NCBI GenBank assembly: GCA_947652115.1 | Contig: OX393561.1 | Coordinates: forward strand, 7,098,910 to 7,162,909 | DNA from: Blastomussa wellsi | Taxonomy: Eukaryota; Cnidaria; Anthozoa; Scleractinia; Plerogyridae | Direction of reading: 5' to 3' | DNA: 64,000 nt | Shown here: positions 31,058 through 36,430 of the stretch, one piece after another | Layout of the letters: every line of letters starts with the position of its first letter | Numbering within the stretch: position 1 is the stretch's first letter | Program-made: the position numbers and the translations under genes | The notes under the pieces: model-generated | Seen by the model: only the letters and a program-made list of their open reading frames with translations | Databases searched by the model: none | Told to the model about the DNA's origin: nothing

Positions 31058-31256
31058 TTAAAGGAGAACTGAAGCCAAAATTCCTGCATTATTTTTGTTA
31101 CTTAACTTTAATAATTATGCTATATGAAAGAATGTTGGCTGGTTTTTTCCCACTTTAGTGACATTTTTCACGCCGAAAAACGAAGTTTTTTACTGCCATT
31201 TTAGCTCTTGTACGGCGGCTCAGAAAGCGCCGGTCAGCGGTTCTCTTTGAAGTTTA

Positions 31257-31273
31257 TGACGTATGATATGGGG
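31257..31273 (+). promoter_or_regulatory. subterminal inverted motif, left copy
   Basis: TGACGTATGATATGGGG, 195 bp from the left end of the transposon, is perfectly repeated in inverse orientation at 36206-36222. It could be an internal transposase-binding site or a promoter element shared by the two genes. It contains a CRE-like TGACGTA. Confidence 0.5.
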
Positions 31274-31285
31274 AGAAAGGTAAAC

Positions 31286-31384
31286 ATGGCTTCTTGTGTG
31301 CACGTCGCTGGAAAGGTCAGGAAACACGTTCGATTAAGGAAAAAGATGGCCAAAGACTTTTCAAGTCTTTCAGGAATTGTGTAA
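31286..31384 (+). CDS. possible 32-codon upstream ORF in the transposon leader
   Basis: ATG in a favourable context (AACATGG) just inside the subterminal motif opens a 32-codon basic frame (MASCVHVAGKVRKHVRLRKK...) ending TAA. It could be a uORF of the transposase mRNA or chance. No family recognised. Confidence 0.2.
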   Translation: MASCVHVAGKVRKHVRLRKKMAKDFSSLSGIV

Positions 31385-31907
31385 GCTGAATTCATTTTGA
31401 CAGATCTAGCTCGCCCACGTTACTCTATAAATGTCGAAAACACGAACATTTTGCCGAAGCGATTGCAAAACATAATTTTTGCGTAATTAAGTACTGAAAT
31501 TTTCTTATGGCTTCTTGATCAGTGACACTTTAGGCCGTGTGGCCGAAATTTTTGGTACAATTAGCTCAGCATACATGTTTTTTGAGAAACTCGCTATATT
31601 CTAGCGGCAGATACGCTTTGTTTAGTGAAAGAACAGCGAGTTAGGATAGAGTCGCAAGTCACGCAACTGATGAGTCATGACCGATAACATCAGGGAGAAC
31701 AACATTTTGAAATAAAATTTTGAAATCTTCATTGGACTTTGATTTTTCTTTTATATTTAGTACATTTTCTGGTCTTACGCAAGGAAACTTGCATAAATGT
31801 AGAGTCCTTACCTGAAGCATATCAATTCAGCTCTCTCGGTCTTAGCTTCGACTAGTTCTACATTTCTCCAGTGTTTACATTACGCGGGCATTACGTTTTG
31901 TGTCATC

Positions 31908-34690
31908 ATGGTGTACTGTGCGGCCTTTGACTGCAACAATGATTCAAGATATACTACTGGTGTATCATACCATTGCTTTCCGAGTGACACAGCTCTGCAA
32001 CAACAGTGGTTGGCAAAAATTTCTCGTGCTGATCTCGTCGTTTCAAAAAACTCCAAGTTGTGCTCAGAGCATTTCACACCCGACTGTTACGAGCGTGACT
32101 TGAAGGCAGAACTCCTCGGTGCCAAACCTAGAGCCATCCTGAAACCAGATGCAGTACCCTCTCTTTTCTCACATAGACCTCCACCAAAAAAGCCAAGGCT
32201 ATCATCAGAAAGACGTTCGTTTGAGAATGCTAGAAAAGAGGTAAGAGTTGGAGACTAGTAATTTATATGCTGTTTTTGAGTTAGTTGTCACCCAAGAATC
32301 TAGGGAAAATTTCTGATGCCTGATAAAATGCTGTTTGTGCTAGTATTTTTGGCATGATTCATTCACTAGAAGGTTGTATGCAGTCTGAATAAATACCAAA
32401 AAAGGAATGTGTGGTTCCCCAGGGAAAAAAATGAATGATGATTTAAAAAATAGCAAAGAACACCAAATGGTATTAGAGGAGTTGAAACCAATGAAAAAAG
32501 AAATTGAAAAAGGCAACCTCACCTAAAGGACTACATTTCATATTTATTTCATCCTTTTTTCATAATTATCTTGATTCTACTCCCGTGCCTTGAAATTCAA
32601 CTGTTTAGTGTTCAATGTAGGTACAATTTACATTAAGTCCAAACTTGCTCATGCAATATTCCATGTCTCTTTGCTGGATTGGTTCAAAATATATCACTGA
32701 CAACATAAATGATCAATTTAAATGTATAGCAACATTGAGGTATGGTTTTGGTTTACAGTATCTTGCTTCAGTCACTGAGACAAGTGTCACGGCACAGGCA
32801 TCCCATGATGGATCTGATGAACCACCACTTCAGCCAACTGCACCTGTATCGGACGATTTAGCAGAGTTGGAACCCAGTACTACCATCCAAGTACAGTCCC
32901 AGGAAGTTCAGGTCTGTTTGCCAAAAGAGGGCTCTGATTTTGGTTGTCAGTTTAATACACGTGGAGAGCAGCTTATGATGAAAGCAGCTGACACCCAAAC
33001 TGAAGTGACTTTTTCCACCTCAAGCACTCAAGTTGAGCAGGGGGATTTCCCAGTTGACAATGAGGAAGAAGAGGAAGATGCCTTTGGAATGGCAAGTGCT
33101 GCCTCTAGCACACCAGAAGTGTCCCCACAAAAGGATGCCACCTACCTGCCACCAAAATTGGAATGTCTGTCTGATGATTCCAACACTTCACAATCTGAAG
33201 ATGAGGGGGAAGAAATATCACAACCCTTGAACCCACAGGATGACACCAAGTTTATTGTCTTCAAACAAGAGCTCCTCAAGCTTCTCAACCGATGCCCTGA
33301 GTGTGGTGCAATGGTTGTAAAAAAACATCAGTCAACCCAGGGAACTCTGTTATCCATTACCCTGACTTGCAAAAATGGTCACAAACATGTCTGGAGTAGC
33401 CAGCCAATGATCGAAGGGATGGCAGCTGGAAACTTGCTGCTCTCATCATCTATTTTGCTGAGTGGTTCAACATATGCTAAAGTATCCTCCTTAGCAGATA
33501 TCCTTAAATTAAAATTTTTCAGCGAGAAAACATTTTACAACATCCAAGATAAATATTTATTTCCTGTGATTAATGATTTTTGGCAAAAGGAGCAAAATTC
33601 CATTTTTCCTGACATAAAAGACAAAGATTTGTGGCTTTCAGGGGATGGGCGCTGTGATAGCCCTGGTCATAATGCCAAATATGGCACATATACAATGATT
33701 GACCAGGAAACTGACAAAATAGTTGATTTCCAAGTTGTTCAAGTAACCGAAGTAAGCAGCAGTAATGCCATGGAAAGGGAAGGATTTAAGCGCTGCATGA
33801 ACAAAATCCAAAATAATGGGGGCCAAATTAAAGTTGTAGCCACTGATCGCCATATTGGTATCAGAGCTGACATGAAACAAAATTTTCCAGAAGTTGATCA
33901 CCAATATGATGTTTGGCATCTGTCTAAAAGCATCACCAAAAAACTCACAGAAAAATCAAAAAAGAAAGAGTGTGGGGAGCTCGCACCTTGGATCAAATCC
34001 ATTTCCAATCATCTTTGGTGGTGTGCAGAGACATGTGAAGGAAACAAGGAGCTGCTGAGGGAAAAGTGGATATCCATAGTGCATCATACTGCTAACATCC
34101 ACTCCTGGGACTCTGCAGACCACTACCATGAATGTGCTCATCCACCCATCCCTCGGAATGAAGCAAGAACTAAGAGGTGGTTACGCCCAGGTTCAGCAGC
34201 TCACAATGCCCTGAAAGAGGTTGTTTTTGATAAAAACCTCCTAAGGGATATCCAGCTGCTGTCTCTATGCTGTCATACTGGAAATCTGGAGGTCTACCAT
34301 AGTGTGCAAACTAGGTATGTCCCCAAGCGTCAACATTTTTCTTACAAGGGCATGAATGCACGCTCCCAGCTGGCGGCCCTGGATCACAATGCCAACACTG
34401 GTAGAGAGCAGGCAACTGTAAGCAGGGGTGCTAACGAAGGTGAACTGAAATATAAGGTTGTCTTTCCCAAACACACAAAGGAGTGGGTGGCAAAACCAAT
34501 CATGGAAAAGACAAGCAAGGATCACCTCAACCCAATTGTGGATGCCATTGTGGAGAGAAAAAAACAAAAACCCCGGGAAAGGAGTGCCACAGTGACAGCT
34601 CCACACATTCCGAAAAACATTGCTAGCAAACCAAGGCCCCCACGAGAAGATGTTATTGCTAAGCATACATCACGATTTTCAAATAATTAA
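31908..34690 (+). CDS. THAP-domain transposase of the Kolobok-like element, 754 aa
   Basis: Exons 31908-32240 and 32759-34690, joined in phase 0 (GAG/gtaaga ... tttacag/TAT). Residues 1-90 are a THAP C2CH zinc finger: C4, C9, W34, C52, H55 and the AVPSLF box at 82-87; this family binds DNA sequence-specifically. An acidic, Ser/Thr-rich linker follows, then a CPECG...CKNGH possible zinc ribbon, then an RNase H-fold core. Likely catalytic acids are D407 (LSGDGRCDSPGH), D474 (VATDRHIGI) and E622 (GNLEVYHS); this assignment is by motif, not alignment. The C-terminal tail is basic, suggesting nuclear localisation. There is no stop or frameshift. It would cut and paste the element at TTAA. AATAAA at 35032-35037 is a plausible poly(A) signal. 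Confidence 0.9.
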
Positions 34691-35309: not shown

Positions 35310-35436
35310 GGCTAACTGTTCCATCTGCCCAATGATCCTATTTAGGAGCTCAATCAAAACCTTGATGAATCAATTGCAATCAGGTCAATTTCCCCGATCA
35401 TGCAAAGTTCAAGACTGTTTGCCAAGTGATACCGTA
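35310..35436 (+). pseudogene. decayed P2RX7_C fragment inside the transposon
   Basis: On the plus strand, TGTGGC-(T)-AACTGTTCCATCTGCCCAATG can be read as CGNC-S-I-C-P-M with one frameshift, matching the cysteine cluster of P2RX7_C. It is followed by a stretch aligning with the end of exon 1 of the intact gene (AGGAGCT-AATCAAAA-TTGATGA-TCA), then directly by one aligning with exon 2 (GATCATGCAAAGTTCA...GTTTGCC). The 80 bp intron is absent between these blocks. It therefore looks like an intronless or retro-derived relic, inverted relative to the intact gene and abutting its stop codon. Confidence 0.6.
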
Positions 35437-35437
35437 A

Positions 35438-36123
35438 TCAATTAAGTTCCACGTCTGCTGCTTTAAAACCTACATAATGACCACTATCTTCAGGAAACTC
35501 TTTTCTTATGGCCTTCACAACGCACGCTGGAATCACTCGCCGATTTTTCTTCCCCAGCACACCATGGGCCCACCAGGTGAACTGGCGGTAAGCTGCTAAA
35601 CGCCATGTTCTACAAAATAAGAAACATTTCCATAACTAAAATCCCTGATTATTCGTTTAATTTCTAAGAGAAAACAGCGGCGAACGACGGCCCACTTGCC
35701 TGTTTACAATGGGGTCCGGCAAGAGATTGAAGCGAGCGTTGTGAAGGGCCACGAGTGCTGTATGCAGAACATCGGTATCAAGGCAAACAATCCTGAACTT
35801 TGCATGATCTGTTATGCAATCGACGCCTTTCAAAATAACACGAAGCACAAGTATAAGCATGCACTGAGAATACTTGCAGGAAACACGCATTTAAAAGAAA
35901 ACAAACCTGACTCATCGAACTTTTGATTAAGCTCCTCGAGTTCTTGGCAGCAGAAGCACTCGTCGGCAGAAGACATTTCTTCACAGATCCCGCAAACACA
36001 CCAAGCTCTAGAACCGATTCGCGAGTGGTTCACGTCGAGTTCGCCGTCCTCTTCCTCATGCGAATCAACGGGTTCTTCGCCAGGAGGATATGTGGGCTCG
36101 AAAAGAAACGGCTGAACACTCAT
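35438..36123 (-). CDS. P2X7-receptor C-terminal-domain (P2RX7_C) protein carried by the transposon, 171 aa
   Basis: Exons 36123-35907, 35826-35700 and 35609-35438 join in phases 1 and 2 (516 nt including TGA). The introns are 80 and 90 bp; the second has a GC donor (AACAG/gcaagt). The protein begins MSVQPFLFEPTYPPGEE, has an acidic stretch, then a cysteine cluster WCVCGICEEM...ECFCC, then CITDHAKFRIVCLDTDVL, and ends RLAAYRQFTWWAHGVLGKKN-RRVIPACVV, GFKAADVELN. Order and motifs match the zinc- and guanine-nucleotide-binding ballast domain of P2X7 receptors; the channel part is absent. Stand-alone P2RX7_C proteins are common in cnidarians and fishes. Here the gene is inside a transposon, convergent with the transposase. 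Its role is unknown; a zinc-binding cofactor or regulator of transposition is possible. Confidence 0.85.
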
Positions 36124-36205
36124 AATATCGACCAAAAATAATATAAAATAGAACGAAAAATGACAAGGATCTTAGTCACAGCCAAGTGCAAAGTAAACAA
36201 CCTTT

Positions 36206-36222
36206 CCCCATATCATACGTCA
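36206..36222 (-). promoter_or_regulatory. subterminal inverted motif, right copy
   Basis: CCCCATATCATACGTCA is the exact reverse complement of 31257-31273 and lies 204 bp from the right end, just upstream of the P2RX7_C gene. CAGCGGTT is also shared slightly further out. Confidence 0.5.
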
Positions 36223-36430
36223 CAAGATAATGCTACCAACCGCTGAAGAGAAATACGAGCCCACGGTGTTTAAGCTCGAAAAGCGGGAAAAACGCAACTT
36301 CAAACCAAAATATTTTGGAAAAGATGTGAGACCGACACAAATAACCGCCGAAACTTGGTTTTATACGTCTTAAACTTCACAAAAATGAAATAAGAAAATG
36401 TATCGATTTTTGGCTTCAGTTCTCCTTTAA

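Follow-up and report, generated by a model that had tools for sequence, protein, structure and literature searches.

A Kol0-type Kolobok transposon in the coral Blastomussa wellsi and the probable role of its KolX protein in transposition

A 64,000-nucleotide stretch of the genome of the stony coral Blastomussa wellsi (GenBank assembly GCA_947652115.1, contig OX393561.1, positions 7,098,910 to 7,162,909, hereafter the window) contains, at positions 31062-36426, a complete DNA transposon of 5,365 bp that carries two genes. One encodes a transposase and the other a protein with the P2RX7_C domain, known from the cytoplasmic 'ballast' of the P2X7 receptor and named KolX in this class of elements. 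We read the element as a complete, recently mobile Kolobok of the Kol0 kind, in which KolX would be a working transposition factor and not neutral cargo, and put the probability of this reading at roughly 0.7, on the strength of sequence comparisons. Purifying selection on both genes, their matched divergence and their pairing throughout the genome make a transposition factor the most likely identity of KolX. An earlier note on this DNA had known of no description of the pairing of the two genes. It is already in print: under the name Kol0, Kojima and Bao (2022; PMC9587614) describe a group of Kolobok elements that encode a P2X7 ballast domain, KolX, as their second protein, and what we report is a new family.

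Ends, classification and copies of the element

The ends form a perfect inverted repeat (AGGAGAACTGAAGCCAAAA, 19 of 19 bp) bordered by TTAA on both sides, as the earlier note had described, and in the whole window this 19-bp end has only two matches with up to three mismatches, against 0.01 expected. The 4-bp TTAA duplication of Kolobok is found on both sides of the window copy and of a second copy on contig C9, and the termini, AG...CT, follow the 5'-RR...YY-3' pattern and not that of piggyBac. The transposase fits the published Kolobok signature, a DDD/E triad with C/DxxH between the second D and the E (PMC9587614), and the second gene encodes a P2X7 ballast domain with seven cysteines. TTAA target, RR...YY ends, DDD/E with DxxH and a seven-cysteine KolX are shared with Kol0 (Kolobok-1_XT; PMC9587614). 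The element is therefore a Kolobok-type transposon, as first supposed, of the Kol0 kind, and a new family of a published type. KolobokP, KolobokD, KolobokE and KolobokH are likewise Kolobok elements with an extra protein, but theirs are nucleases or a RecQ helicase. In KolobokP the second gene lies on the opposite strand, as here (PMC9587614), whereas the termini of KolobokP also bear long direct repeats (about 450 or 660 bp); these are lacking in our element, within which no direct repeats of 25 bp or more were found.

Two other memberships were considered and rejected. The transposases of the P element and THAP9 share with ours an N-terminal THAP domain in a DDE-type enzyme, but the P element makes 8-bp target site duplications and its transposase has a GTP-binding insertion of its own (PMC7776569), whereas the duplication here is TTAA, of 4 bp. 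As for piggyBac, a Pfam search with the two transposase exons gives no piggyBac family at E up to 0.1.

The transposase gene has two exons on the plus strand, separated by a GT-AG intron, and encodes 754 amino acids without a stop; the earlier description of an uninterrupted THAP and DDE gene was thus correct. In an alignment of 58 transposase rows (A3, in which residue numbering begins at position 32759), D296, D363, D384, H387 and E511 are each invariant or conserved in at least 90% of rows. The roles given to the D and E residues in Table 1 are our own proposal, made by matching them to the Kolobok signature. Between DxxH and E, residues C426, H443, H448, C459 and H461 are conserved to the same degree and form a candidate zinc finger. 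Kolobok transposases have an RNase H fold. At E up to 0.1, Pfam reports four sub-threshold families for exon 2 (Mutator, Transposase_mut, MULE and DDE_Tnp_ISL3), the best for the catalytic part being PF20700 Mutator, at 26.1 bits for a cut-off of 26.5 bits, and a Kolobok transposase profile run against solved transposases at E up to 1 returned only two chance hits (E 0.36 and 0.48).

We searched the genome assembly (367.8 Mb in 124 contigs) for further copies. The one on contig C9 (C9:25742632) is identical to the window copy over all 5,365 bp and has TTAA on both sides, while the flanks of the two copies do not match each other over 1.5 kb on each side. An identical, TTAA-bounded copy in unrelated surroundings points to a separate recent insertion and not to an assembly duplicate; by this evidence the element is recently mobile. 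That the window copy might be a host gene instead of a transposon gene is ruled out by the two bounded, identical insertions.

A search for TTAA followed by the 15 exact end bases yielded five facing pairs (the window, C9:25742632, C1:10824022, C1:14979649 and C8:26814982), and one unpaired end on C10. All five elements hold transposase and KolX sequence. KolX is open in all of them except C1:10824022, which has one stop; transposase exon 2 is broken in C1:14979649, while the other four elements have it open (643 amino acids); the matched pieces of C1:10824022 omit element positions 473-1283, and hence the THAP exon. When up to two mismatches were allowed, the same search gave 170 genome sites, against 5 for a reversed control. 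Among the 100 of these sites that were listed, 18 facing pairs were found, ten of which measure 362 to 1,126 bp and are short deleted copies. The other eight include the five exact-end copies and two of a second, related family, family 2 (C9:14315090 and C19:14368006), all seven with both genes; for the eighth, C1:25228102 (5,993 bp), neither gene is among the transposase and P2RX7_C matches listed. Had most full-length copies lacked P2RX7_C, the view of the earlier note would have failed, and this is not what the exact-end copies show.

Pairing and selection of KolX and transposase

A search of the genome with the P2RX7_C family of Pfam gave 82 exon-level matches, all above the curated cut-off, and a transposase search at least 78 matches, with 69 of 299 candidates scored. 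Of the P2RX7_C matches, 45 lie within 6 kb of a transposase match of the window type, and in all 45 cases the two are convergent. Some of the other 37 adjoin a more distant Kolobok lineage (the core of L069 is 27% identical), and the transposase tail of L070, a relative of L069, produced as a query 24 matches that link 15 more P2RX7_C matches, again all convergent. Both queries together place 60 of the 82 within 6 kb of a transposase, where 0.21 would be expected from coverage, and the orientation is convergent in 60 out of 60. Counted from the transposase side, KolX is present no more than 6 kb away at 59 of 74 loci.

The locus-by-locus look covered 13 of the 22 unlinked matches. Two (L017 and L023) have a piece of transposase nearby, and at three more (L072-L074) a THAP exon piece faces KolX, with at most a weak core match in 2.5 kb; since THAP is a common domain, the latter three count as weaker evidence. 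This brings the P2RX7_C matches with transposase or THAP sequence nearby to 65 of 82. L016 and L018 have no transposase within 1.5 kb, yet are members of the same dispersed repeat family as L014, and six of the 22 are units of one tandem array. At C1:21713302-21739739, KolX exon 3 occurs eight times with a period of about 3,756 bp and transposase matches at the low end only, and we read this locus as a tandem array of a Kolobok piece. A separate observation concerns L071:2028-4501 (C22:6603000-6607500), where a reverse-transcriptase-like open reading frame (ORF), DIRS-like by eye, adjoins the transposase tail of a KolX-bearing element.

In the coral genome, most P2RX7_C matches are explained by transposon carriage. 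The earlier note had suggested that carriage might explain the abundance of such genes in cnidarians, and the suggestion holds, for one genome, with 60 of 82 matches linked, as gauged mainly by transposase linkage, and transposase or THAP pieces at five of the other 22. Rump et al. (2020; PMC7016195) had taken P2RX7_C genes for an old host family. We identified no host P2RX7_C gene in the genome; any of the 17 matches near which no transposase or THAP piece was shown may or may not be one.

We then compared selection on the two genes, as the earlier note had advised. Between the window copy and the family 2 copy at L044, the proportions of non-synonymous (pN) and synonymous (pS) differences are 0.146 and 0.706 for KolX (171 codons), and 0.155 and 0.728 for the transposase (468 codons), so that pN/pS is 0.21 for each gene. 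Expressed as the ratio of substitution rates (dN/dS), the values are 0.076 (0.038-0.145) for KolX and 0.066 (0.035-0.111) for the transposase; as dS exceeds 2 and only 237 of 300 (KolX) and 227 of 300 (transposase) resamplings were usable, the ratio of raw proportions is the safer figure. A comparison with L045 gives 0.068 for KolX and 0.059 for the transposase, and one with L043, a decayed copy, 0.099 for the transposase, the dS of KolX being not computable there. The 28 elements with both genes were dereplicated at 93% into 13 non-redundant ones. Among these, pN of KolX is lower than pS in every one of the 78 pairs, which share branches and hence are not independent, and the median pN/pS is 0.56 for KolX and 0.50 for the transposase. 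Over the same 13 elements, pairwise identities of KolX follow those of the transposase (Pearson r=0.82, Spearman 0.43, Mantel p=0.0002). KolX, like the transposase, is therefore under selection in the lineages that keep moving.

Could KolX nevertheless be cargo, selfish or neutral, acquired when an element happened to pick up a ballast gene of its host? Kolobok lineages differ in their accessory genes (PMC9587614), and gene capture is thus common in the superfamily. However, purifying selection on KolX between families equals that on the transposase; invariable convergence at the linked loci, together with divergence in step, argues for one old acquisition and not for repeated capture; and no host source was identified in a genome where most matches lie near transposase or THAP sequence. 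We therefore consider cargo very unlikely, and where the earlier note had left two roles side by side, that of a functional partner and that of a selfish cargo, the selection data speak for the first.

KolX protein, gene structure and subterminal motif

The KolX gene lies on the minus strand, convergent with the transposase gene, and its three exons, as originally proposed, encode a protein of 171 amino acids that matches P2RX7_C at 3.2e-21. The closest named relatives among NCBI proteins are from stony corals such as Montipora, Porites and Pocillopora, and full-length proteins of these corals align across both splice junctions, which is the strongest outside evidence for the predicted splicing. 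The junction of exon 2 and intron 2 (35698-35701, minus strand) has a non-canonical GC donor that is otherwise ideal (CAG|GCAAGT), and family 2 has GT there instead (CAG|GTTAGT). Two nested inverted repeats were also seen: one of 28 nt (35396-35423 / 35782-35809, 93%) pairs exon 2 with the 3' side of the gene, and one of 31 nt (35512-35542 / 35717-35747, 84%) pairs exon 2 with exon 3. The second pairing, between exons 2 and 3, is found again in families 1 and 2 and sits in constrained codons; it is possible that the repeats form an RNA hairpin over intron 2, or that they are a coincidence arising from those codons. A weak scan, with few peptide patterns, for a viral or prokaryotic source of KolX gave 63 pattern matches in viral contigs and 6 in GTDB, none of which was confirmed.

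Compared with solved P2X7 chains, KolX matches residues 472-593 (best E 2.4e-10), but lacks the channel part of the receptor. According to Kojima and Bao (PMC9587614), P2X7 and Nanor derive from KolX. The seven cysteines of KolX are invariant in a 12-row alignment (A1), and among the covered rows of 23 non-redundant KolX sequences they are found in 18/18, 18/18, 18/19, 18/18, 17/18, 19/19 and 23/23; we take these near-invariant residues as probable zinc ligands. An eighth cysteine, C87, is present in 20/21. In the pairwise alignment of KolX with P2X7, the CFCC cysteine pair falls on no cysteine pair of P2X7. Two arginines are kept as well among the non-redundant KolX of the genome, R118 (P2X7 R546) in 19/20 and R150 (P2X7 R578) in 22/22, and they are the only two kept of the five GDP contacts of P2X7 listed by Rump et al., the counterparts of H547, R574 and K583 being lost in the window KolX. 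Outside deuterostomes, the same authors likewise found R546 and R578 to be the only contacts retained, and they did not decide whether GDP is bound (PMC7016195). An alternative role, in which KolX would shield the element from a defence of the host (piRNA, chromatin or innate sensing), would likewise lead to its selection together with the transposase; but cysteines and arginines kept across very divergent elements suggest a constant partner and not an arms race, which makes this role extremely unlikely.

An 18-bp motif (TGACGTATGATATGGGGA) lies inside each terminus, at a distance of 195 bp on the left and 204 bp on the right. It is perfect in the family 2 copies L044 and L045 and has two changes in L043, and it is thus kept between families although synonymous sites of both genes are near saturation. 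Genome-wide, 104 sites match it with at most one mismatch, against 0 for the reversed control. Among the end matches listed, 28 of the 52 exact motif sites have an end of the same orientation 153-215 bp outward, 11 more face an end within 700 bp, and 13 have none. Short deleted copies can keep the motif, so that it is probably required for transposition; we regard this requirement as likely, probably with the motif as a binding site. As it also stands in front of both genes, KolX might instead be a regulator made by the element, either a repressor or a transcription factor acting on the motif, which would limit copy number and damage to the host without being part of the cutting machine. Nanor, a relative of KolX, has a proposed role in transcription, cited by Rump et al. 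(PMC7016195). However, the motif also occurs near the termini of short deleted copies, as one would expect of a site used in transposition more than of a promoter, and such a regulator is possible but, in our opinion, rather unlikely.

Table 1. Coordinates of the element and its parts in the window
Feature	Position	Strand	Remark
Target site duplication TTAA, left	31058..31061	.	
Terminal inverted repeat, 19 bp, left	31062..31080	+	begins AG
Subterminal motif, 18 bp, left	31257..31274	+	candidate binding site for transposition
Transposase exon 1, THAP domain	31908..32240	+	Pfam THAP 1.9e-17
Transposase intron	32241..32758	+	GT-AG
Transposase exon 2, catalytic part	32759..34690	+	
Proposed first D, transposase	33644-33646	+	D296 of alignment A3
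Proposed second D, transposase	33845-33847	+	D363 of alignment A3
DxxH, transposase	33908-33919	+	D384, H387 of alignment A3
Proposed E, transposase	34289-34291	+	E511 of alignment A3
KolX exon 3	35438..35609	-	AYRQF, IPAC, IRKEFP motifs
KolX intron 2	35610..35699	-	GC-AG
KolX exon 2	35700..35826	-	
KolX intron 1	35827..35906	-	GT-AG; absent from related family at L044/L045
KolX exon 1	35907..36123	-	5/7 conserved cysteines (WCVCGIC, CFCC)
Subterminal motif, 18 bp, right	36205..36222	-	
Terminal inverted repeat, 19 bp, right	36408..36426	-	finishes CT
Target site duplication TTAA, right	36427..36430	.	

Elsewhere in the window, three separate ORFs with C2 domains lie on both sides of the element (10290-11132; 23986-24672, minus strand; 52357-52932, plus strand) and appear synaptotagmin-like by eye. 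A gene for a Bmt2-type 25S rRNA methyltransferase (2.4e-56) occupies 58651-59691 on the minus strand. On the same strand, an ORF of 229 amino acids at 61356-62045 has a GIY-YIG domain (2.9e-5); it is presumably the endonuclease part of a Penelope-like retroelement.

How KolX may act

By analogy with the Kolobok family, the THAP-DDE transposase would cut the element at its AG...CT ends and paste it into TTAA. KolX, a stand-alone and probably zinc-binding ballast domain retained by selection along with the transposase, would act with it at the element ends, in assembly, end pairing or regulation. Proteins that join the two kinds of domain lend some support to an action at DNA ends. A fish protein (P0198, Corythoichthys intestinalis, 381 amino acids) has THAP and P2RX7_C in one predicted chain, and is perhaps a domesticated or rearranged Kol0 product; an Ixodes protein joining THAP, spelt 'TAHP', and P2RX7_C was reported by Rump et al. 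(PMC7016195). As KolX and transposase are convergent in the coral genome, simple read-through of adjacent exons would not be expected to yield such a fused chain.

Several observations weigh against a working transposition factor. The fusions are automated gene models. No transposase or THAP piece was shown near 17 of the 82 P2RX7_C matches, and a KolX match is missing from the 6-kb neighbourhood of 15 of the 74 transposase loci. Ten of these 15 are under 1 kb, and one short locus, C1:14988824, belongs to an interrupted element, C1:14979649, of which it makes up the far half and which has KolX at its other end; the remaining five span 1.4-2.5 kb, for example C9:16182779, a 1.5-kb transposase with one stop. 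Strong selection is visible only between families, where synonymous sites are near saturation. Close copies are nearer neutrality, with ratios (dN/dS or pN/pS) of 0.38-0.85 for KolX (and one of 0 over 50 codons) and of 0.65-0.87 for the transposase, once 2.8 with 11 changes, which is expected if copies decay after insertion.

A more specific role can be proposed for the transposition factor. The P-element transposase, which also bears a THAP domain, needs GTP for end pairing and for joining to the target (PMC7776569), and the P2X7 ballast has GTP/GDP and zinc sites of unknown function (PMC9859053). Taken together with the conserved R118 and R150, this leads us to propose a guanine-nucleotide function of KolX in trans: it might serve the Kolobok transpososome as its guanine-nucleotide-binding subunit, in the form of a separate protein that is stabilised by zinc and that the transposase recruits to the ends. 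With three of the five GDP contacts lost, and the two kept arginines perhaps structural, we think this unlikely.

Besides PMC9587614, no further paper on the pairing was found among the literature matches listed, nor were our linkage, selection and divergence tests or the GTP proposal met there. No selection test or genome-wide linkage count for KolX was found in the consulted part of PMC9587614, whose main text nowhere uses the words purifying, convergent, THAP or GTP; a paper on Xenopus Kolobok (PMC6004289) mentions neither KolX nor P2X, and in PMC9319628 Kolobok and P2X7 are each named a single time.

Stand-alone 'P2X7-like' coral genes are annotated as receptors or as unknowns, and in this genome most P2RX7_C matches adjoin Kolobok transposases. 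With two identical, apparently intact copies and known ends, the element is suited to testing what KolX does. If the guanine-nucleotide proposal were true, the GTP/GDP site of P2X7 would be the relic of a transposition cofactor site; and any function found for KolX would bear on the origin of the P2X7 ballast domain.

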